Source: Caldifarciminota bacterium (GTDB lineage Bacteria; Hydrothermota; Tepidihabitantia; B3-TA06). Taken from it: a stretch of 64,000 nt of DNA. Shown here one piece after another: positions 2,296 to 51,100 of the stretch. The number at the start of each line of letters is the position of its first letter. Positions within the stretch are counted from its first letter, which is position 1. Both the position numbers and the translations under genes were made by a program. The notes beneath the pieces were generated by a model. It was not told the DNA's origin, did no database searches, and saw only the letters and a list, made by a program, of their open reading frames with translations. The stretch spans positions 1 through 64,000 of the forward strand of contig JAFGSK010000002.1 in assembly GCA_016934635.1 (NCBI GenBank). The letters run 5' to 3'.

Positions 2296-3462
2296 CTAGT
2301 TTATGATTACTACCTTTTTTACGTCGCTGAAGCCCAGAGCCTCCATACGAATCAGGTAGATGCCTGAAGGGAGCTTGCGACCTTGGTTGTCTGAACCATT
2401 CCATATTAGATAGTGTTCGCCACCTTCGTAGAGCTTTTCGGTAATTGTTCGAAGCAGACACCCTTCAACATCGTATACGCCGATTTCCAGATAGCAGGCT
2501 TCAGGAATAATAAAACGAATCTCAAATCCACGGCAGCTTTGATTACTATGGTCAACCTCAAAGCTGAGCTGGGTAAGCTGAACCGGTTTGAAAGCCACTG
2601 CAGGCGTATCGTCGGGGGGCCGTAGTACGTGATGCGTCCATTCGTCATTTTCCGGGCACTCATCATCACGTAACTCGGTGCGAACCTCAAACCTGTACCA
2701 GTGCTCTTCAGGCATGGCGAACGTCGGAAACTCCACCTCAACCTTGTAAGGGAAGTCATCTCCCGCAGTACGGCTGTAAATATGCCTCGCCCACTGGGCA
2801 TTGTGCCATACCAGGGAGTCAGGATCCTTGGTTGCGTCCAAGATCTCGAGGTCGACGACAACGTCGTTCAACTCATTGTAACCGAAGTTCTCGACGGTGG
2901 CTATGCAGGTGAATTTTGTTCCTGCAGGGAACCGGTCCATAGGAAACCACCACGAATGACCTTCCTTGTTTCCCATATCAACCACACCCACGTCATTAGA
3001 TAGCAATGCAGTTGCGAAATCACGTGAGCTGTCGTTGGCTGGGTTCTGGTCGTTAACCTCATCAACCACCCCTATAACCTCGAAGTATTCGCCTACAAAG
3101 TAAAGATCAGGAGGTCCTCCGGCCAGGTGTTCCCAATCCTTACAGACACCACTCGGTATCCAGGCTGGAAAATCTACCTCTACCGTATCTGAAGCAGAAC
3201 TAGGGATCCCGAGGTAGGGGATGGTTGCGGATTCGGTATAGACCGTGTCGTCATCCCATATATCGACGATGATGAGCTTGACCGGAACGAACGTTTCCTG
3301 CACCCAACCAAGGTTAACGATCTTGACTCGCGGGATGATCTCAATCCCGTCCTGAATCCACGTTTCGTCGGGTACGACGATCTCGGTTACCGTAAGATCG
3401 TGGGTCTGGGCAAAGCCCGTGGTGATACTGAGTAATCCAAGAATACAACATAGAATTTTCAT
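2296..3462 (-). CDS. Exported paralogue of the preceding protein with FlgD-like C-terminal domain
   Basis: A 388-aa exported protein. The chosen ATG at 3462 follows an AAAGGAGGAGG ribosome-binding site (GTG at 3465 is an in-frame alternative) and opens a signal peptide (MKILCCILGLLSITTGFAQ). Its middle section parallels the larger downstream protein: both have 'GHSW', 'FTC.ATVENFGY' and 'VDLEI.D.TK.PDSLVW'. The C-terminus (GVYDVEGCLL, then GIYLIRMEALGF) is the same FlgD-like domain. The pair looks like a duplication in which the downstream copy gained extra modules. The start overlaps the TGA of a 57-codon upstream reading frame (TGATG), suggesting translational coupling. Function beyond a surface or secreted role is not recognisable. 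Confidence 0.85.
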   Translation of the reverse strand: MKILCCILGLLSITTGFAQTHDLTVTEIVVPDETWIQDGIEIIPRVKIVNLGWVQETFVPVKLIIVDIWDDDTVYTESATIPYLGIPSSASDTVEVDFPAWIPSGVCKDWEHLAGGPPDLYFVGEYFEVIGVVDEVNDQNPANDSSRDFATALLSNDVGVVDMGNKEGHSWWFPMDRFPAGTKFTCIATVENFGYNELNDVVVDLEILDATKDPDSLVWHNAQWARHIYSRTAGDDFPYKVEVEFPTFAMPEEHWYRFEVRTELRDDECPENDEWTHHVLRPPDDTPAVAFKPVQLTQLSFEVDHSNQSCRGFEIRFIIPEACYLEIGVYDVEGCLLRTITEKLYEGGEHYLIWNGSDNQGRKLPSGIYLIRMEALGFSDVKKVVIIN

Positions 3463-3635
3463 CACCTCCTCCTTTTCTCTTTATGATTATTAATTTGCCC
3501 TTGAATTCCTCCCGTGCGAACATAGACTAGAAAAAACCTACTCCCGTATCCTATAATTGAGTCCAGAACCACAAGAGGACTTTCACCCACTCCCCTAACC
3601 ATCTTTCCCGGACCAGAACGAAGTACTGGTTTCAT
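3462..3635 (-). pseudogene. 57-codon leader ORF or decayed exported-protein relic
   Basis: The ATG at 3635 has a strong AAGGAGGAGG ribosome-binding site, and the frame runs 57 codons to a TGA overlapping the next gene's ATG. The product has no signal peptide or recognisable domain. Near its end 'GSRFFLVYVRTGG' resembles the 'GIYLVRMEAEG' strand of the neighbouring C-terminal domains, and a +1 shift from there reads 'EEFKGKLIIIK', like their final 'KVVIID'. Two readings are possible: a relic of a third paralogue that lost its middle and shifted frame, or a real short first gene coupled to the operon. I favour the relic but the ribosome-binding site looks intact. Confidence 0.35.
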
Positions 3636-3672: not shown

Positions 3673-3688
3673 AGCAATTTTCATGCCA
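3673..3688 (-). promoter_or_regulatory. Sigma54-type (-24/-12) promoter of the exported-protein operon
   Basis: Read on the minus strand the sequence is TGGCATG-AAAA-TTGCT, one base off the sigma54 consensus TGGCACG-N4-TTGCW. It lies about 40 bp upstream of the 57-codon frame that opens the minus-strand operon, giving a predicted start near 3662. The inverted repeat at 3821-3842 lies about 130 bp upstream, a normal distance for a sigma54 enhancer, and a half-site of the same motif (AGTTACACT) is at 3655-3663. The link to the adjacent regulator is inference. Confidence 0.7.
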
Positions 3689-3789: not shown

Positions 3790-3802
3790 AATATAATGGG
3801 GG

Positions 3803-3830
3803 TTGACTTTTGGCATTTTAAGTGTAACAT
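3803..3830 (+). promoter_or_regulatory. Housekeeping promoter of the first kinase-sigma54 regulator
   Basis: TTGACT (3803-3808), a 16-bp spacer and TAACAT (3825-3830). The -10 element lies inside the inverted repeat at 3821-3842 and the start codon follows 13 bp later, so the transcript would have almost no leader. This predicts autoregulation by whatever binds the repeat. Confidence 0.6.
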
Positions 3831-3842
3831 TTATATTACACT
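3821..3842. promoter_or_regulatory. 22-bp inverted repeat (probable operator/enhancer)
   Basis: Arms AGTGTAA and TTACACT flank an 8-bp centre; 18 of 22 positions are symmetric. The core matches the GTAACAT-TT-ATGTTAC dyads clustered at 8828-9017. It overlaps the regulator's own -10 and lies about 130 bp upstream of the divergent sigma54-type promoter, so one site could repress the regulator gene and activate the exported-protein operon. Confidence 0.65.
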
Positions 3843-3843
3843 T

Positions 3844-6800
3844 ATGGAAAGAGAAGAAGCACAAGCTACGCTGAATAAGGGCTTAACCCTGTTGCGAGTT
3901 TTAGGTAAGGGCGAGGGTACGGTAGTGTGGTTGGCCGCAGATGAAGAAACTGGCAAAGATGTTGCGGTAAAGATGGCTACTGAGCCAGATTCTACCCACC
4001 GTCTTGAACGGGAATTCGCCATGCTTGAGCGCTTTGACCATCCCGGTATTCTGAAGGTTTTTAAGTTCAGTATAAACAACAACCTGCCTTACTTCACTAT
4101 GGAATTTATTGAAGGTGAACCGTTTAACGAATTTCTTCTCAAGTGCCACGGGAGCGAGGATTTTTCTACCCTTTTCACTGAGGTTTTTGGCCAAGTAGTA
4201 GCGATCCTGGCCTTGATTCATCATCAAGGGGTAGTGCACGCCGATGTGAAGCCTGCGAATCTTCTGGTTCGAGATTCAGGCGAACCTGTGCTTCTGGATT
4301 TCGGGTTTGCAGAGGATTATATGCTTGAACGCGGAAGACCGCCTCGAGGAACCCTCGATTACGTGGCGCCTGAGCTTTTTCGGGGTGAAAACGTGGGCCC
4401 GGCAACCGATCTCTACTCGCTTGGCGTCATGGCTTACGAGGTACTTGCCGGGAAGAAATTATGGGAAAAGGAATCGCTACGAGATCTGGTTGCATCGAAG
4501 CTTACAACTCCTCCTGCATTCGGTAAGAACCTGCGTTTCCTTTCGGAAGAACTAAAGGATCTGATCCTGCGTCTCCTGAACCCGGAACCCGAACTCCGAC
4601 CGACCGCTTCTGAAGTTGCGGACATCGTCTCTTTGGAACTTAACAAAACCAAGGGGCTAAAGATTGCCTCCCCTGGTTTCGTACCCAGGTTGGTTTTCGG
4701 AGGCAGGGAAGAAGAAATAGAGGAGTTGGAGCGACTCCTTTTTGAAGAAAAAAAGGTTGTATTCCTTACCGGTGAACAGGGCATAGGGAAAACTCGCTTA
4801 ATGTGTGAACTTCGGTTTCGTAGCCTGGTAAAGAAACGTAATATCATAATGCTCCACTGCCGGGCTGGCCATCTATCCCTTCTGGAACATCTGGCTGCAA
4901 TAATCGGCATGCCCAGAAATGCGTTTACCGCGGATGAAGCTGTACAGAACTATGAACGGATACTTCAGGAACTCTACAAGCAGGGAATAAGCGCTTTGCT
5001 GATAGACGCGGCGTGTGAACTCTCGACCTATGAGGAACAAGCCTTAGGCTTTCTGGCACGCGGCCTGGAAGCAAAAAGCGGAGTCCTTTTGACAGGGGTT
5101 GAGGAAGAAATCCATCCTACGGGATCGAAGTTTTTACTGGCACCTTTGTCAGACCAGGAAATAGAAGAACTCGTTAAATTTAGCTTCCGCACCCTTACCT
5201 CAAGCAAGGAACTTGCATATGACCTGTCCGCCTTGAGCCAGGGTAACCCTCATAAGTTCCAGGAGCTTTTGGAGATATTCTGCCACCAAGGTTGGCTCAG
5301 GCAGGAACCGGGCTGGGTTTACAGTTCTCCAGACGATAAAAGTGCCATCTCTACTCAACTCAGCCAATGGCTTGAAGAGAAAACAGCTTTGCTCCATCCG
5401 CCCTCGAAAACACTTCTCAACGTATTGGCATTAAGTGAAGGCTCTCTTCCCTTGGACGTACTGAAGCAAATAAATCGAGGTTCTGACATAACTTGGTCTT
5501 TGAAGGAACTTTCGAGAAAGAGGTTGGTTAACCAGATCATCCATCGTGATCGGATTCATTATGCGATTCCAGGTGAGTTTATAAAGGAAGCGGCTTTGGC
5601 AAAAATTCAAACCAAAGAAGCACAAAGACTACTTAAAGACCTGGTTTATGGTTTTGAAACCACTCTTGAGGCCCGGTGGGGAAAGGACCTCAAGGGTTGG
5701 CAGGATGATGAATGCCTGATTCATCTCGCAAGGCTCTCTTTCAAAGCGAAGCTTACAGGTAAGGCCAAGACCTACCTGATACTAGCAGCTAAGCAGTTAG
5801 TTAACCTTGGTTATTTCGATCAGGCGATAACCTTCTACGAGAATCTCTTGACCCTTAATCCTGGGGTTGAAAAAAAGACAAAGGCTTTGAAGGAGCTGGG
5901 CCGCATTGCCAGCATCCGGTACGATCCCGAAGCCTGTCACGACTTTTACTCCCGTGTAATTCCCTTGACCAAGGACCCTGAAGAGAAGGCTGATTTGCTG
6001 TACCGCATAGGAATGGCCTATCAGAGGTCACGGGATCTCGACCTCGCCGGGGAATACTTCGACAAAAGTGAACAGTACCTTGGAGAAAAACCGTCTGAGC
6101 TGAGTACCCAACTCCTATCAGCGCGGGGATGGAACGCCTTACTTAGGTCCGATTTAGACGAGGCTGAGAGGTCTTTCGATAGATGCCTGGTCGAAAAGGC
6201 TTCGCCAGCCAACCACCACCGGAATCTCTTCAGTCTGGCAATCGTGCTTACACACAAGGCGGAATACGGAAAAGCCTTGAATTACGTCCGCCAGGCGCTT
6301 GAAGGCAGCAAAGCCTGCAAAGAAAACAGCGCTGCTTGTCAATATGCGATCCTGGCCGTAGACATCTGTCAAAGGCTGGGTAACCTCAAACAGGCTGAAA
6401 CTTACTTAGGTGAAGCAGAGGAGTTAAGCCTGAGGATCCAGAATCCCTTCCTGAACGCGGATATCCTGCGTTTTAAGGCAACCTTGGCCGGATACAAAGG
6501 GCAGGTAAGGAATGCTAAAGGCCTTGCCCGTCAGGCGCTCGAGATATTAGACAGGCTTCAGAGTGAAACCGAATTGCCCGCGGTCCTGGCAATAGGGGCT
6601 GAGCAATCAAGGAATCTGGGTGAGTGGGATCATGCCCACGAAACATTGCGCAAGCTCTGGAAGATCGTGGCAACCCAAAAATCCAGGCGTAACTTTATCC
6701 CTTATGTGCTTACCAACTGGTCGCATCTCTTCCTAGAGCAGGGCAAGCGATTCATTGCAGACCGGATGCTCCGTAAGATCAGGAACCTCACCAAAACTAA

Positions 6801-8829
6801 AGGATCGAAGGCGGATTCAATAGGCTGCGCTATTATGGAATGTAGATTTGCCTTTACCTGCAACGATTACCCCAAAGCACGAGAGATCCTTAAGGGTGTT
6901 TTCTCGGTTTTGGACAATGATGGTGATATATGGTCGAGATTAAATGTCGCTTTGCTTGGTGCTGAGCTTTTTTACAAAGAAGGAAAAATCTCACAAGCCC
7001 TTACCGAGTCCAGGAAGCTGATTAAGAAGGTTGAAGAATCCGGCTTCGAGGCCTTATTAGGCGAAGCCTTACGACTTGAGGGTGAGGTACTTGTTGCCAG
7101 TGATGAATATAAAAAAGGCCTAGCCGTCTTGCGCCGAAGTATAGATGTCTTTAAGAAACAGGAAAATCTCTACGAATACGGCAAGACCCTTTACATAATG
7201 TCAGCGTCGATGTTCGAGAAACAGGGCTACAGCGACGAAGCGTTGACCTATCTTGAAGAGGCAAAAACTGTTTTCCAGAGATTGAGTTTGGAACCTGAGT
7301 TGGCTCGTATCCAACGTTTTCGCGCGGAACACTTCCAGGACTGGCGTCAGCCTTTCGGGCTTTCCTTAGCTTACCTTTCCGGTCTGAAATACATAAGTGA
7401 ACTGATCAACAATCGTCTGGGTGAAGAGGATTTTATGATCCAGTTGCTATCGGTGATACTGGAACTCACCGGAGCAGAACGAGGAATGGTATTCTTTGTG
7501 GAGAAGGCTCAGCTTTATTCGGTGGCTTCAAAACAGATGGATGCTTCATCAAAAAAAGACGCCCGGCTTATCTCCCAGACGGTTATCAGGCAAGTCAAGC
7601 AAGAGCTTGCACCCATATACACTTCGGATGCAACCCAGGATGATCGATTCAACCGCGCTCAGAGTATCATACTTAATCGTATCCGTTCTATCTTGTGCCT
7701 GCCGCTCAAGATCGGTGATCGACTGATAGGAACGGTTTACTTGGACAGCCGAATGCCAGGCCTATTCGATCAACGTAAAGTAATCTACTTTGAAGCACTC
7801 TCAAACCTTCTTGCTGTCACTACGGACAAGTCTCTTGAGTTTCAGAAACTCAAAGAAGAACTCCTCTTGTCTCGCAGGCGAAAAAAGTGGGAAAGATCAG
7901 GTGTAGTTATCGGAAACTCCCCAGTAATGAAAGAAATCTGCCGCCAGTTGGAACAAGCTGCCCAATCCGAGGCTAACGTACTGCTTGAAGGCGAGACCGG
8001 GACCGGCAAAGGGGTATACGCTCGCATGATCCATGAACAGAGCACCCGACGTGACCGTGAATTCTGCTCAATCGACTGCGGGATACTTCCAGAGACTCTT
8101 TTCGAATCCGAGTTGTTCGGCGCAAAGAAGGGAGCCTATAGCGGTGCAGATCAGGATCGTATGGGGCTTCTGGAAGCAGCGGACGGCTCAACCGTATTCC
8201 TCGACGAGATCACCAACATGACCCTGGCTACCCAGGGTAAACTTCTTGAAGTAATCGAAGAACGTGTGATACGTAGATTAGGTGAGACCAGAAAGAGACA
8301 GGTAAACATAAGGTTCATATTTGCCACTAATCGGAACCTTGTAAAGGAAGTAAGGGACGGTAACTTCAGGGAGGACCTCTACTATCGCTTGGCAACCTTT
8401 AAAATCCATATCCCTTCTCTGCGTGACCGTAAAGAGGATATCCCGGAGTTCGTTGATTTTTTCGTGAAGAAATACTCATCAGAATTGTCAAAAGAAGTAA
8501 ACCAGGTAGGTTCAAACACGATCCAAGCGCTCATGAATTATTATTGGCCAGGCAATATCCGTGAGTTGGCCAACGTTATGGAAAGAGCCGTACTCCTAGC
8601 AAAAAGTGGGCGCATATCACCCAGACATCTGGATCAACGTTTCTGGCCTCAAGTTACCCCAAGACTGAAGGATATCCGAAGGATTGAAGACGCGGAACTG
8701 ATCAGGCGAACTCTTTTTCAAACCCGAGGTAACGTGACCCAGGCGGCAAAAAGGCTGGGGATATCACGTCAACATCTTATCAGGCTTATCAAACGCTACG
8801 GAATATCACGCGATCCAACCAAGGGGTGA
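3844..8829 (+). CDS. Ser/Thr kinase-ATPase-TPR-GAF-sigma54 activator-Fis HTH regulator (first copy)
   Basis: A 1661-aa one-protein signalling relay, presumably cytoplasmic. Domain order by approximate residue: Ser/Thr kinase 10-265 (loop GKGEG, Lys in VAVKMA, catalytic HADVKPAN with D134, DFG, APEL); AAA_16-type ATPase 284-560 (Walker A GEQGIGKT); TPR array about 620-1160; GAF 1183-1335; sigma54 AAA+ 1354-1592 (Walker A GETGTGKG, Walker B VFLDEI, sigma54-contact loop GAYSGA where GAFTGA is usual); Fis-type HTH 1612-1661 (GNVTQAAKRLGISRQHL). The kinase is non-RD (HAD instead of HRD). I start at ATG 3844 rather than 3796 because the -10 overlaps the upstream sequence. It is flanked by sigma54-type promoters on both sides and by private inverted repeats, so it probably activates both neighbours and controls itself. 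The sensed signal is unknown. Confidence 0.92.
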   Translation: MEREEAQATLNKGLTLLRVLGKGEGTVVWLAADEETGKDVAVKMATEPDSTHRLEREFAMLERFDHPGILKVFKFSINNNLPYFTMEFIEGEPFNEFLLKCHGSEDFSTLFTEVFGQVVAILALIHHQGVVHADVKPANLLVRDSGEPVLLDFGFAEDYMLERGRPPRGTLDYVAPELFRGENVGPATDLYSLGVMAYEVLAGKKLWEKESLRDLVASKLTTPPAFGKNLRFLSEELKDLILRLLNPEPELRPTASEVADIVSLELNKTKGLKIASPGFVPRLVFGGREEEIEELERLLFEEKKVVFLTGEQGIGKTRLMCELRFRSLVKKRNIIMLHCRAGHLSLLEHLAAIIGMPRNAFTADEAVQNYERILQELYKQGISALLIDAACELSTYEEQALGFLARGLEAKSGVLLTGVEEEIHPTGSKFLLAPLSDQEIEELVKFSFRTLTSSKELAYDLSALSQGNPHKFQELLEIFCHQGWLRQEPGWVYSSPDDKSAISTQLSQWLEEKTALLHPPSKTLLNVLALSEGSLPLDVLKQINRGSDITWSLKELSRKRLVNQIIHRDRIHYAIPGEFIKEAALAKIQTKEAQRLLKDLVYGFETTLEARWGKDLKGWQDDECLIHLARLSFKAKLTGKAKTYLILAAKQLVNLGYFDQAITFYENLLTLNPGVEKKTKALKELGRIASIRYDPEACHDFYSRVIPLTKDPEEKADLLYRIGMAYQRSRDLDLAGEYFDKSEQYLGEKPSELSTQLLSARGWNALLRSDLDEAERSFDRCLVEKASPANHHRNLFSLAIVLTHKAEYGKALNYVRQALEGSKACKENSAACQYAILAVDICQRLGNLKQAETYLGEAEELSLRIQNPFLNADILRFKATLAGYKGQVRNAKGLARQALEILDRLQSETELPAVLAIGAEQSRNLGEWDHAHETLRKLWKIVATQKSRRNFIPYVLTNWSHLFLEQGKRFIADRMLRKIRNLTKTKGSKADSIGCAIMECRFAFTCNDYPKAREILKGVFSVLDNDGDIWSRLNVALLGAELFYKEGKISQALTESRKLIKKVEESGFEALLGEALRLEGEVLVASDEYKKGLAVLRRSIDVFKKQENLYEYGKTLYIMSASMFEKQGYSDEALTYLEEAKTVFQRLSLEPELARIQRFRAEHFQDWRQPFGLSLAYLSGLKYISELINNRLGEEDFMIQLLSVILELTGAERGMVFFVEKAQLYSVASKQMDASSKKDARLISQTVIRQVKQELAPIYTSDATQDDRFNRAQSIILNRIRSILCLPLKIGDRLIGTVYLDSRMPGLFDQRKVIYFEALSNLLAVTTDKSLEFQKLKEELLLSRRRKKWERSGVVIGNSPVMKEICRQLEQAAQSEANVLLEGETGTGKGVYARMIHEQSTRRDREFCSIDCGILPETLFESELFGAKKGAYSGADQDRMGLLEAADGSTVFLDEITNMTLATQGKLLEVIEERVIRRLGETRKRQVNIRFIFATNRNLVKEVRDGNFREDLYYRLATFKIHIPSLRDRKEDIPEFVDFFVKKYSSELSKEVNQVGSNTIQALMNYYWPGNIRELANVMERAVLLAKSGRISPRHLDQRFWPQVTPRLKDIRRIEDAELIRRTLFQTRGNVTQAAKRLGISRQHLIRLIKRYGISRDPTKG

Positions 8830-9017
8830 CACATAAATGTTACATCTTCTTTATTCCGTAAGCGAAACATAAATTTAACTTAGGAGGATAACAGTGGGAA
8901 TCCTTCAAAAAAACCGTAACATTTTGGTTACTATTTTTTTCTTACCTAAACAACAATCTAGCTGAGGTTAGAACAACTTTGTTCAAGTCCGTAAAAAGGG
9001 TGTAACATTTATGTTAC
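8828..9017. promoter_or_regulatory. Array of GTAACAT-TT-ATGTTAC inverted repeats (enhancer sites)
   Basis: Between the regulator's stop codon and the sigma54 promoter at 9160 lie dyads of one design (7-bp arms, 2-bp centre): 9002-9017 is perfect (GTAACATTTATGTTAC); 8916-8931 has one arm mismatch; 8828-8843 and 8864-8879 are weaker; 8970-8985 carries the variant AGAACAA-CT-TTGTTCA. Centres are 36, 52, 54 and 32 bp apart, several close to whole helical turns. The nearest lies about 160 bp upstream of the -12 element, typical of sigma54 upstream activating sites. Binding by the Fis-type domain of the adjacent regulator is inference. Confidence 0.7.
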
Positions 9018-9159: not shown

Positions 9160-9175
9160 TGGCACGAAAGTTGCA
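9160..9175 (+). promoter_or_regulatory. Consensus sigma54 promoter
   Basis: TGGCACG-AAAG-TTGCA is a full match to the -24/-12 consensus. The predicted start is near 9186, followed by a TTGGAGG ribosome-binding site and the ATG at 9212. The dyad array lies directly upstream. Confidence 0.85.
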
Positions 9176-45685: not shown

Positions 45686-47887
45686 CTATCTTAATACGAT
45701 TAGCTTGGCTTCAGCCGTGCAGTTCTCGGTAGCGAGTTTTGCAAAGTACACCCCCTGGGGCAGCGCCTGCGGCGCTGCCCAGGTGCCCCTTCCTTTTAGT
45801 ATTTCCTCAAGCGCCTTCCTGCCATCCGCAGAGTATACCACCAACCGAGCCTCACCCGGTAGATCGTAGGAGAGGCTGCCGTAACAACCAGAGAGCTTAA
45901 TGGTTGATTCGGGAATTACGGGTCCTTCCTCGACGCTTACATTGTATTGTTCGTATATCTGCAGACCGGCACATATATCAGCAACGTAAATGTACGAATC
46001 AAGGACAAAAACATCCATTGACTCACAAGGCATATAGTAGTAACCTACTTCTCTGGGGTTTGAAGGCACAGATATATCTACAACATTTAGTCGCTCCCAA
46101 TCAGCCAGATAAACGTAAGGGTATGAAACATAAATGCCATTACTTGTACCTTGAGTATCACAGAAGCCAATCAATTTAGGGCTGCATGGATCAGATACGT
46201 CGAATATATGTATTCCGCCACCGCGCCACTCGGTAACATAAGCATAAGGACCTAAAACCTTTATGTCAGAAGCACAACCAAAATGCTCGTAGCGGCCTAC
46301 CTCCTGGGGGTTTGAAGGTTCCGATATATCTATTACATACAAGCCGGAGTCCCAAGAAGTCAGATAAGCATACTCCTCCTGTACATAAACACTTGAAGGT
46401 CCTATGGGCATTTCATAGAAGCCAATTTCACGGGGGCGGGAAGCCCGACTTATATCGATAATACGAAGACCAGGGTCGCCGTCTGCAACATATGCATAAT
46501 TATCCGTAACATGAATTGCCATGAGTGGCCCGGGAGTTCTACAGATGCCTCTTATCATTGGTTTTGACGGAATTGAGATGTCTAAAACGTAGAGAGAGCC
46601 CGAGTCTCGTCCTCCGCATGCAACATAAGCGAATGGTTTCCTTACCCACACATCGTAGGCCCAATCAGATAGAAGACAAAATCCCACTTCGTTCGGAAAA
46701 CGAGGATCAGAAACATCAATAATAGAGACCCTTTCACGCCATGGCTCAGCGATATAGGCGTAGGACTCTGAAATGAAAACACTATTTGCCCAACCTGGGA
46801 TACCGTCTACACTGTTGACCTCGAAAGGCTCTGTTTGACTAAATACGTTTATTACGCGAAATCCATTATAACAAGACACAAAGGCATAAGGCCACGAAAC
46901 CGAAACACTGCTTGAACTTGAACCCTTAATGTCTATACTGCCAATTCCTTTCGGCTCAGATGGAACAGATACATCTATTATACTAAGCCCTGTACCTGCG
47001 ACGTAAACAAACGAATTTGAGATATGGACATCCCCATGATTAATATTCGACGTATTGAGCCGACCAACTTCAAATGGGTCAGAAGGATTTGATATATCGA
47101 TAATACGCAGGAATCCATCCTCAAGTGTATCATTTGGATAATTGACGCCAACGATATAGGCAAAGGAATCTGAAACACATAAGTGTTCAACCTGATCTGG
47201 TATTGGATAATAACCAACTTTAAGTGGTTCAGTTGGATTTGTCACGTCTATAACTTGAAAGTACGCATTAATAAAACCTTGCCCTCCTGCAACACAGATA
47301 TGTGAACCAGAACCGTCAATACTTTTAGCCCCCGCCCGGATATAAATACTACCCATCTCTTGAATCTCAGAAGAATTCGATATATCAAATACCCGCAACG
47401 TATCCCAACCAATAACATAAGCGTAAGGAAAAGATACATGAATACCCCTGGCACCTTTTGAATAGCAATCACTGAGTTTCATTGGCGAGGTTTTTTTTGA
47501 TATATCCCATATCTGAAATCCCCACGTGGCGGCAACATAGAGTTGCTTCCACGATTTCTCGTAACATAAATCATATACAATCCCTTGCGTACGAATTGTG
47601 TCAGAGATTAACACCGGTTTATCGATGTCTGTGACATCATAAATATAGACACCTCCACCTGATCCGAGAAAGACGAGCCGTCTTTCCTCATCGTATGCTA
47701 TTGCATAGGAAGGTCCGAACGGCCAGTTGCCTATGAAACGCACGTTCAAGGAATCTTCTTCAGACATGAGAATCCCGGCATACTCAGTTGGTTTACCATC
47801 GAAGGCCCACGGGTTATCGAAATCCACCGGCTGAGATAATGCTGCTCCTGCCAGGGTTAAGCACAGTATAATTTCAAATCTTTTCAT
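45686..47887 (-). CDS. Large LVIVD-repeat beta-propeller exported protein, first gene of a sigma54 operon
   Basis: A 733-aa exported protein: signal MKRFEIILCLTLAGAALSQ, then about a dozen LVIVD repeats ('VSDSFAYIVG...LRIIDISNPSDPFEVG') enough for two propellers, and a C-terminal sorting-like domain ('LSYDLPGEARLVVYSADGRKALEE', 'LPQGVYFAKLATE') nearly identical in design to its downstream neighbour. TGGAGGAG precedes the ATG at 47887. A consensus sigma54 promoter lies 31 bp upstream, and beyond it GTCTC dyads and the second giant kinase-sigma54 regulator, of which it is the probable target. Confidence 0.9.
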   Translation of the reverse strand: MKRFEIILCLTLAGAALSQPVDFDNPWAFDGKPTEYAGILMSEEDSLNVRFIGNWPFGPSYAIAYDEERRLVFLGSGGGVYIYDVTDIDKPVLISDTIRTQGIVYDLCYEKSWKQLYVAATWGFQIWDISKKTSPMKLSDCYSKGARGIHVSFPYAYVIGWDTLRVFDISNSSEIQEMGSIYIRAGAKSIDGSGSHICVAGGQGFINAYFQVIDVTNPTEPLKVGYYPIPDQVEHLCVSDSFAYIVGVNYPNDTLEDGFLRIIDISNPSDPFEVGRLNTSNINHGDVHISNSFVYVAGTGLSIIDVSVPSEPKGIGSIDIKGSSSSSVSVSWPYAFVSCYNGFRVINVFSQTEPFEVNSVDGIPGWANSVFISESYAYIAEPWRERVSIIDVSDPRFPNEVGFCLLSDWAYDVWVRKPFAYVACGGRDSGSLYVLDISIPSKPMIRGICRTPGPLMAIHVTDNYAYVADGDPGLRIIDISRASRPREIGFYEMPIGPSSVYVQEEYAYLTSWDSGLYVIDISEPSNPQEVGRYEHFGCASDIKVLGPYAYVTEWRGGGIHIFDVSDPCSPKLIGFCDTQGTSNGIYVSYPYVYLADWERLNVVDISVPSNPREVGYYYMPCESMDVFVLDSYIYVADICAGLQIYEQYNVSVEEGPVIPESTIKLSGCYGSLSYDLPGEARLVVYSADGRKALEEILKGRGTWAAPQALPQGVYFAKLATENCTAEAKLIVLR

Positions 47888-47917: not shown

Positions 47918-47933
47918 AGCAATTGGCGTGCCA
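47918..47933 (-). promoter_or_regulatory. Consensus sigma54 promoter of the LVIVD operon
   Basis: Minus strand TGGCACG-CCAA-TTGCT, a full -24/-12 match. The predicted start near 47907 leaves a ~20-nt leader with a good ribosome-binding site. Confidence 0.85.
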
Positions 47934-48007
47934 GGCAAAGGATTAAACGCCTGAAGCTAAGTCACAGATTAAAGGGAAGTTATGGCAAGTCTGATAATGA
48001 AAATCCA

Positions 48008-48119
48008 GTCTCTTTGTCTCATTTTTGAGACTTGGCTGTCTCTGCATTCTCAGGGATTGAATAACGTCTCGAAACATAAAGACTTAGGATTGTGTATTGA
48101 TTTGTCTCAAAAATGGGAC
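48008..48119. promoter_or_regulatory. GTCTCA-N4-TGAGAC inverted-repeat array (enhancer sites)
   Basis: Two full dyads, GTCTCATTTTTGAGAC (48016-48031, perfect 6-4-6) and GTCTCA-AAAA-TGGGAC (48104-48119, one mismatch), centres 88 bp apart. Extra GTCTC half-sites lie at 48008, 48038 and 48066. The array is about 90-200 bp upstream of the sigma54 -12 element and directly after the regulator gene's stop codon. Its sequence is unrelated to the first module's dyads. Confidence 0.7.
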
Positions 48120-48160: not shown

Positions 48161-51100
48161 CTACCCGATCTTTATGCCGTAGAACTTTATAAGCCTATAG
48201 AGGTGGCTGCGGGATACGCCCAGACGCCTTGCAGCCTCGGGAACCTTCCCTCCGGTCTCGATAAGGACACGTCTTATGAACTCTTTTCTCTCCACGTTGC
48301 CCAGCTCTTTCAAGCTTTCCGCGGTAGACGTAACCACCGGGAAAAAGTGCTGTTTGAGAAGGGTTTTGGTGATTCTCGGTCCTCTTGACATGAGCACTAA
48401 TCGTTCTATCACGTTCCGGAGTTCCCGTACGTTGCCAGGCCAGGGGGCGTTAACCAGGATGTCCATGGCCTCTTTCTCAATCCCGACAACCGGTTTCTTG
48501 AGATCGGTGGAGAAACGTCCCAGGAAGAAGTCGATCAATTGTGGTATGTCTTCTTTTCGCTCCCGCAGAGGGGGCAGCTTCAGGGTCAGGGCGCTTATGC
48601 GGAAGTAAAGGTCCTTGCGGAACCGGCCCTCGGCGACCTCTTCCTTGAGGTTGCGGTTGGTGGCGAAGATGAAGCGCAGGTCTACGTTCCTCTTGCGCGA
48701 TTCACCGATGCGCCGTATCACCCTTTCTTCGATTACTTCCAGCAGCTTGGCCTGCATCGAAGGCGAGGTGTTGGTTATCTCATCGAAGAAAACTGTCGAA
48801 CCGTTGGCCGCCTCGAGAAGCCCTGCGCGGTCATGGTCGGCGCCGGTATAGGCCCCCTTCTTTGCCCCGAAAAGCTCTGATTCGAAGATGCTCTCGGTAA
48901 CCGATCCGCAGTTTATTGAGCAGAACTCACGCTCACGACGCGGGCTCCGCTCGTGTATCATTCTTGCGAATACCCCCTTTCCTGTGCCGGTTTCTCCCTC
49001 GAGAAGGATATTGGTATCGGATGCCGCTATCCGCTCGAGCTGTGCGTATAGTGCCTTGATCGCGGGAGATGATCCCAGAACGATCCCGTGCATCTTCAGG
49101 CTGTCCTTCTGCCTGGCCAGGTGCAACTCGTCCTGCAACCGGTAAAACTCGACCGACCTGTCGATGGTCGCCGCAAGCAGGTTCCCTAACGCTTCGAAAT
49201 AAAGGGTATTCTCGGCATCGAAAAGCCCTGGTTTACGGCTGTCAAGGTACACTGTCCCGACAAGGCTACCTTCGGTCGTTCTCAACGGAATACAAAGAAG
49301 CGAACGGATATCGTTCAAGAAGATGCTTTGAGACCTGCTGAAACGTTCGTCCGAGGCGGTGTCTTTAGTGTAGACAGAGGCGGTTCCCTCCTTTACCTTC
49401 TCGATAACGGTTCTGGAAATCCTTTGGGCATCCTTTGCGGTCGCCTTATCTATTCCCCTTGACGCGACAGGGTGGAGCTCTCCAGCGTCTGCAAGGAAAA
49501 CCATGCCCCGCTCGGCACCGGTAAGGTCAAGGGCTACGGTCAAAAGCCTGGTCATGAAATCTTCCTCGCCCAGATGAAAGTTAATGAGTTCGGAGACCTG
49601 CTTAAGGCCTTCCAGGTATTTCTGGGAGAGCACGGGTTGAGCGTCGAGGACATGCTTTGCTTTTAGATCCTTGATTCGCCGTAACTTATGCCTTGCCCCC
49701 AGGCGCTCGAAGATCGGGCGGGCTTCATCCAACGCCCGAACCGCTTCATCCGAACGTCCCTGATGCTCGAGCGTCGCCTCAGCGATTGCAAGAAGGGCGA
49801 GCGCTTGCTCGTAAGGCTGCTCGCGAGTCTGATATATCTTCAAGGATTCCCTGAGCATTTCCAACCCTTTCTTTAGATTGCCTGTTGCGGCAAGGGACCT
49901 ACCTGTCTGGTAAAGGGAGTGAGCGTAGAATCTATCCTCGGCTTCCCTTTGGATTCGGTCCAGGACCCGGGACGAAAGCTCTGCTGCGCTTTCGTTTTTG
50001 CCTTCAGCCAGAAAAAGCTCAGTTTCTAACATCTCGAAACGCAGATCAACCGAAAGGTTACTTTGGGTCTTCAATCGTTGCTTGGTTTCTTTAAGCAATC
50101 GCCTGGCTTTGACAGGATCTCCAGCGTCTATCTCCAGCCAGCATAGATCCATTTCAAGCTCGAGGGATTTGTTCTTATCATTGAAGACCTCAGCTCTCCT
50201 TTTTGCCTTTTTGAGCATACGCCGACCGACATTGAAGTCGCCCTGTCTGCCGTATAACAGTCCCCAGAACCTAATTATCTCGGTAGGGAAGGGTGCGAAT
50301 ATCCTGTCCGGGGTTCGTGGGAGCTTTCGCCACAGTTCGAGCAGAGTCTCTTGAGCGAATTTCCAGTCCCCAAGACAGGTGGAATAAACGGCTTCGTAGA
50401 ACCGGTGCGATTCAAGCGCCATCTTTTCACCAAGCTTTGAGGAAATCTCGATAGCTTCTCTGACAAGGTCTCGTGCCTTACGATAACGGCCTTGAGTATA
50501 AAGATGAAAAGCGGTTTTTCCCAGTACGTGAGCTCGCAGCGAGGGGAATTTTAAATCTTCACATATTTCAAGGGCTTTTTTTAACCATTTATCAATCTCG
50601 GAAGTGCGCCCAAGAACCCAAAGCACATGTATCATCTCAAGGATATAAATGCTCTTATTGCCCTTATCCTTAGCAGCCTCGGCCAGCCCGACAGCCTTCT
50701 CAGCATGATAGAGCGCCTTTTCAGGATTCCCGGAAAGGTTGAACATTGTACCCAGGCCGTTATGGGCCAGAGCCTTTTCCCTTTCTGAAGGGGCTATTCC
50801 AAGGGATTTTTCAAACAATACTCGAGCCTGATCCCATTTGCCTTGAAAAAGTGCATTCCATCCGCGTCTTTGAACCAGTTCACATCGAAGCTTGGGCGGA
50901 GCATTCGGGCATTCTGCAAGGCTTTTCTCACACTCGTCAAGAAAGTAATCGACCTTATTAAGCTCATGAATTCTTTGATATGCCTGGCCTATTCGTAAAA
51001 GTACATCCGCTTTATCCGAAGGGTTCCCATGCGTTAAAGGAAGAACCTGTGAAAAATACTCCTCTGCAAGACTGGGGTCATTCTCGATGACAGCGATACG

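Follow-up and report, generated by a model that had tools for sequence, protein, structure and literature searches.

A very large sigma54-dependent activator gene, p2, is followed by a cluster of GTCTC repeats and then by two genes for LVIVD-repeat proteins, and this arrangement raises the question of which protein reads the repeats and what they control. The locus lies in a 64,000-nucleotide stretch of a Caldifarciminota genome, which we refer to as the window. From the sequence comparisons described below we consider it very likely that p2 binds, as its enhancer, the dyads behind its own gene and so activates sigma54-dependent transcription of both LVIVD genes. The features of this module and of two others used for comparison are listed in Table 1.

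Table 1. Features of the p2, p1 and C74 modules; positions are those of the window unless a locus is named.
Feature	Position	Strand	Basis or remark
p2 activator, 1,671 aa	48161..53176	-	Pfam domains and motifs
p2 recognition helix SRSHLYRLIKF	48182..48214	-	translation; residue numbers from alignment A1
Distal dyad GTCTCAAAAATGGGAC, GTCTCA-AAAA-TGGGAC	48104..48119		one mismatch; centre 180 bp upstream of -24 element
GTCTC half-site	48066..48070	+	between dyads
GTCTC half-site	48038..48042	+	between dyads
Proximal dyad GTCTCATTTTTGAGAC, GTCTCA-TTTT-TGAGAC	48016..48031		perfect; centre 92 bp upstream of -24 element
GTCTC half-site	48008..48012	+	promoter side of perfect dyad
Sigma54 promoter TGGCACGCCAATTGCT (-24/-12)	47918..47933	-	zero mismatch; faces LVIVD gene starting at 47887
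LVIVD-repeat secreted protein, 733 aa	45686..47887	-	PF08309, 271 bits, 9 stretches
Second LVIVD protein, 402 aa	44469..45677	-	PF08309, 178 bits, 5 stretches
p1 activator (first module), helix SRQHLIRLIKR	3796..8829	+	Pfam, translation
p1-module dyad GTAACATTTTGGTTAC	8916..8931		one mismatch
p1-module dyad GTAACATTTATGTTAC	9002..9017		perfect
p1-module sigma54 promoter TGGCACGAAAGTTGCA	9160..9175	+	
Small proline-rich peptide gene, 78 aa	9212..9448	+	behind p1 promoter; no counterpart in p2 module
C74 activator, 423 aa (G000:C74), helix DRRSLWRKRK	L173:17948-19219		

The presence of a consensus -24/-12 promoter facing the LVIVD genes, claimed in an earlier note on this DNA, is borne out: TGGCACGCCAATTGCT matches the consensus at every position, and in pattern searches of the 3.33-Mb MAG that contains the window TGGCAYN5TTGCW has 36 matches against 5 for the reversed control pattern. 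The genome also encodes rpoN (sigma54). Both p2 dyads are within the gap between the p2 stop codon and the LVIVD gene start at 47887, so that regulator, putative enhancer, promoter and target are consecutive on one strand. The dyad and its one-mismatch copy 88 bp away had been described correctly, and the palindrome pair scores above all 300 dinucleotide shuffles; the three accompanying half-sites are likewise all present, but rather than lying behind the dyads one (48008) is on the promoter side and the other two are between them. Together GTCTC and GAGAC occur 6 times within 136 bp where 0.19 are expected (Poisson p ~6e-8), and start-anchored 131-bp stretches with more than two such motifs are confined, within the window, to this array.

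The p2 protein has the domains of a sigma54 activator joined to an elaborate N-terminal region. Pfam identifies a Ser/Thr kinase, a STAND/AAA_16 ATPase, a TPR array, a GAF domain, a sigma54 AAA+ domain (PF00158, 216 bits, residues 1367-1532) and a C-terminal Fis-type HTH (PF02954, HTH_8; 31.8 bits, cut-off 22). The kinase motifs HLDLKPGN and DFG are intact, and the loop that contacts sigma54 is GAYTGA, compared with GAYSGA in p1 and GAYTSA in a third paralogue, p3. The TPR array (TPR_12 and others) is found in both p1 and p2.

The two LVIVD genes are separated by 8 bp and presumably form a single operon. The 733-aa protein has a C-terminal T9SS sorting domain (TIGR04183, 26.3 bits, cut-off 23), the 402-aa protein scores just below the same cut-off (22.4 bits), and the genome contains the SprA translocon (TIGR04189, 363.7 bits joined, cut-off 200); these LVIVD propeller proteins are probably exported by the T9SS. 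A single-sequence fold of the 402-aa protein has a mean pLDDT of 55 and PDB matches that are mostly beta-propellers, a low-confidence model that hints at a propeller-like structure. We keep an LRR gene further down out of the operon because it has its own sigma70-like promoter match (TTGACA-17-TAGGAT), although such matches are no commoner there than in shuffles. A number of the sigma54 sites in this genome precede genes whose products have a signal peptide or a tail of the T9SS type, which agrees with the view that sigma54 governs the bacterial exterior (PMC3162934).

For signal, binding and activation we infer a course of events from these domains and from the known mechanism of the family. 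The kinase, STAND/TPR and GAF domains of p2 would integrate a signal, and p2 dimers would occupy the two GTCTCA-N4-TGAGAC dyads through the Fis-type HTH, with the three half-sites helping. The DNA would then loop from the dyads at 92 and 180 bp to the promoter, where the AAA+ ring, with its GAYTGA loop touching sigma54, would open the holoenzyme and permit transcription of the two propeller genes. The earlier proposal that a sigma54 promoter with activator-type dyads serves the LVIVD operon is supported at the level of sequence.

The earlier note had regarded GTCTC dyads scattered throughout the genome as a refutation of its proposal, and such scatter is rejected, with intergenic copies at two loci only. 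There are 2 perfect copies of GTCTCA-N4-TGAGAC genome-wide, and when one mismatch is allowed the only two intergenic loci in 3.33 Mb are those of p2 and of another activator, C74, both behind an activator gene and in front of a sigma54 promoter; the remaining 5 copies are within long ORFs. The exclusivity that the note implied for the GTCTC dyad is not upheld. The C74 gene is followed by a three-copy GTCTCA-type array of its own (GTCTTAATCGTGAGAC, GTCTCATCACTGAGAC and GTCGTATTTGTGAGAC), a sigma54 promoter (TGGCACGGAAATTGCT), and an operon for a T9SS-tailed protein of 1,608 aa and a second protein whose HEAGH motif is metalloprotease-like, and cross-binding is therefore plausible. Since p2 and C74 have the same GTCTCA half-site and different helices, the mapping of helix to site is not one-to-one; either two helices read one site, or p2 and C74 would share targets. 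In the latter case C74 might also bind the p2 dyads, and the LVIVD and C74 secreted-protein operons would constitute one regulon with two activators, as could be expected from the three dyads and sigma54 promoter behind C74 and from the secreted, T9SS-tailed proteins in both target operons. We regard this as possible but somewhat doubtful, given that the two helices are unlike at several positions, that each array adjoins its own activator gene, and that the flanks and spacers of the half-sites are not alike.

The reading in which p2 acts on the array behind its own gene can be compared with the arrangement at its paralogues. The p1 protein, which is 42% identical to p2 and whose true start is probably the ATG at 3844, also has a dyad pair and a sigma54 promoter behind its gene. 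The helix strings of p1 and p2 had been read correctly in the earlier note; its statement that the p2 motif shares nothing with that of the first module is in error, as GTCTCATTTTTGAGAC and GTAACATTTATGTTAC are identical at 11 of 16 positions, the mismatches being x and y of each half-site and one spacer base, and GTNNCATTTNTGNNAC occurs genome-wide only at the p1 and p2 modules. The p3 gene (contig C25, within the module at L019:1-16482; helix SRTTLWRKMSS) is accompanied by dyads GTTTCATTAATGAAAC and GTTTCAACAATGAAAC, with GTTTCA half-sites, each preceding a sigma54 promoter. Comparison of the p1, p2 and p3 dyads yields one frame, GTxyCA-N4-TGy'x'AC, filled with AA, CT or TT. The two p3 promoters precede a run of about 7 related secreted proteins, one of which was compared with Pfam and NCBIfam and has no match in either.

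Two further observations concern the upstream region of p1. A divergent sigma54 site (TGGCATGAAAATTGCT, 3673-3688, minus strand) precedes a secreted-protein gene at 2296-3465, and a further p1-type dyad (GTAACATTTATATTAC, window 3824-3839) is found upstream of this site at a distance of about 145 bp. The dyad overlaps the promoter region of p1 itself, which suggests autoregulation or a second p1 target. The regions upstream of the f1 family of regulators (for example window 3800-3846, L074 and L076) share a conserved TTGACTTTT...TATATTAC...ATG, and because the ATG is only a few bases past the -10 element these sequences suggest a leaderless sigma70 transcript for the regulator.

The claim that the dyad difference follows the recognition-helix difference extends well beyond this pair, and the two track over 32 non-redundant modules after correction for relatedness. 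Helix and half-site distances are correlated (Mantel r 0.41; partial r 0.44 given AAA+ distance; p 1e-4) in a sample whose rows are not fully independent, in which several half-sites were read by eye, unblinded and with the helix in view, and in which the register of one module (G010a) is uncertain. We observe Arg at helix residue 6 with C at half-site base 5 in 22 of 22 cases, and Lys, Asn or Ser with A in 10 of 10. This rule was fixed in advance of fetching the phylum-wide loci, and base 5 followed it in the later modules with readable dyads. On the AAA+ tree both traits change 6 times, giving 6 independent pairs over all branches and 4 over well-supported branches only, all of them concordant (sign test p 0.125 for the 4). 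Individual comparisons include G128 (GRATLWRYIK) and p3 (SRTTLWRKMS), both with GTTTCA; G035 and G077 (TRRTIYKYI), both with GTATAC; and the sister helices SRPTLDR and SRPTLYK, found with GTAACA and GTAAAG respectively. G144 has C5 but G6 rather than A6. A second rule, in which T4 accompanies an aromatic helix residue 5, held only in part, with G086 contradicting it and G024 being ambiguous; among Arg-6 modules every T4 case has Trp or Tyr, and Tyr also occurs with A and C.

Across the modules the Arg equivalent to Fis Arg85 and the outer G are constant, and the inner bases vary together with the variable helix residues. The p2 dyad is one member of a 15-16-bp family, G-T-x-y-C-A...T-G-y'-x'-A-C, in which the outer G is probably read by the conserved Arg that begins the helix, as it is by Arg85 in Fis, residue 6 goes with base 5, and residues 2, 3 and 5 with bases 3 and 4; with such pairing the p1, p2 and p3 half-sites would differ within one frame. 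This series bears on the suggestion that some unrelated local repressor uses the dyads as its operators and that the LVIVD genes are under sigma54 with some other activator. Repressors too are generally known to use dyads of this size, but related regulators have their own dyads at the equivalent place and the site series tracks the activator HTH, and we judge a repressor very unlikely.

Regulators of the p2 kind recur across the class (38 of 65 genomes) and the phylum (57 of 147), and 4 related loci in named records belong to Candidatus Stahlbacteria or candidate division WOR-3. Directly behind many of them we observe a dyad pair and a sigma54 promoter, the pair being spaced by 69-75 bp in families f4 and f5 (mostly 15-bp dyads) and by 78-88 bp in f1 (16-bp dyads), with p3 irregular; for most regulators of families f7 and f10 the search for palindromes gave no clear pair. 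In five modules the distances from the -24 element to the two dyad centres are 144.5 and 73.5-74.5 bp although the half-sites differ (GTATAC in G035, GCGACA in G020a and G010b, GTGTCA in G022 and GTGCCA in G017), and constant geometry with exchanged letters is as a protein-bound enhancer predicts. We reject as extremely improbable that the dyads work at the RNA level, by forming hairpins or a terminator in the 3' part of the transcript from p2. The perfect dyad does fold to a 6-bp hairpin (-7.4 kcal/mol, z -2.3) but is followed by no U-run, the imperfect copy is hardly better than shuffles (z -1.0), lone half-sites would be of no use in RNA, changes in the dyads go with changes in the recognition helix of a protein, and the distance to -24 is fixed in relatives. 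Within its family p2 itself is found in only one genome, and its dyads are thus without a direct phylogenetic footprint. At G018 (L108:12417 onward) LVIVD-like fragments, apparently of a broken gene, lie behind the sigma54 site of a module from another family; this was rejected as an independent LVIVD association, the module being degraded and lacking a clear dyad.

Most sister modules contain a type of gene that p2 and p3 lack downstream. A small proline-rich ORF is present behind 39 of 55 regulators compared with 3 of 236 control ORFs, and where visible it is under the module's sigma54 promoter. These ORFs are 16-105 aa long (for example at L074, L085, L087, L088, L096, L098, L114 and L190) and include MDGPIIPILPPPRPAPPMD and a form with a signal peptide and DGIPHPPKPVPPT repeats; L088 has a signal peptide and tandem repeats, and L190 and L116 have repeats as well. 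The examples tried match no Pfam family. The second gene of many modules, past the peptide gene (as at L094), is a small conserved ORF, MKSSHLYEVKMLDGTRYKGEI..., also with no Pfam match. One can speculate that the ancestral module was a peptide-signalling system of an undescribed type, in which the giant regulator senses, or is tuned by, the proline-rich peptide that it switches on, with p2 and p3 being duplicates that retained the switch, took over surface-protein operons and had their enhancer dyads re-coded; we think this rather unlikely.

These modules amount to a natural experiment: dozens of regulators share one architecture, and each comes with its probable binding site at a nearly fixed location, which allows residues of the recognition helix to be matched against DNA bases. 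The long-standing question of how Fis-type activators distinguish their enhancers after duplication thus becomes directly testable. The modules also point to, in an almost uncultured phylum, a proline-rich peptide family tied to these regulators that is apparently undescribed.

An activator beside its target with several UAS is an established arrangement. Fis-HTH sigma54 activators of Clostridiales adjoin their targets, whose -24/-12 promoters are preceded by several UAS at 100-250 bp, the UAS of these regulons are more alike where the HTHs are more alike, and TGT-N10-12-ACA sites of the NifA/FhlA type are established (PMC6615313). The p2 module is similar in its AAA+ sigma54 domain and PF02954 HTH, its position adjoining the target, its several UAS, and its distal dyad TGTCTCAAAAATGGGACA, which conforms to TGT-N12-ACA. 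It differs in that the Clostridiales N-termini are mainly PAS, with some receiver and PRD domains (PMC6615313), whereas that of p2 is Ser/Thr kinase-STAND-TPR-GAF and its target a secreted LVIVD pair, and in that the dyad series described here keeps one frame and near-constant geometry with the inner bases exchanged. We found no description of the kinase-STAND-TPR-GAF-activator architecture in a library of open-access papers, and as far as we could find there, this receptor architecture and the fixed geometry with swapped sequences are undescribed. In RRNPPA systems the gene of a TPR-bearing regulator is directly followed by one for a small peptide, and tandem repeats occur in some precursors (PMC9765709); the sister modules resemble them in pairing a TPR-bearing regulator with a downstream small peptide gene, some of these with tandem repeats. 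Unlike RRNPPA, the sister regulators have a C-terminal Fis HTH, a sigma54 AAA+ domain and a kinase, the hosts are not Bacillota, and p2 itself has no peptide gene; an RRNPPA-type N-terminus (HTH or Rap-type) was looked for in the regulator and is absent, the N-terminus being a protein kinase. Finally, the Fis core site is 15 bp long with an AT-rich centre and a G at both ends that is contacted by Arg85, the first residue of the recognition helix (PMC4784862). The f4 and f5 dyads are like it in being mostly 15 bp and in having the outer G and the equivalent Arg, but the present dyads are specific, palindromic and conserved in their inner bases, and those of p2, at 16 bp, are one base longer.
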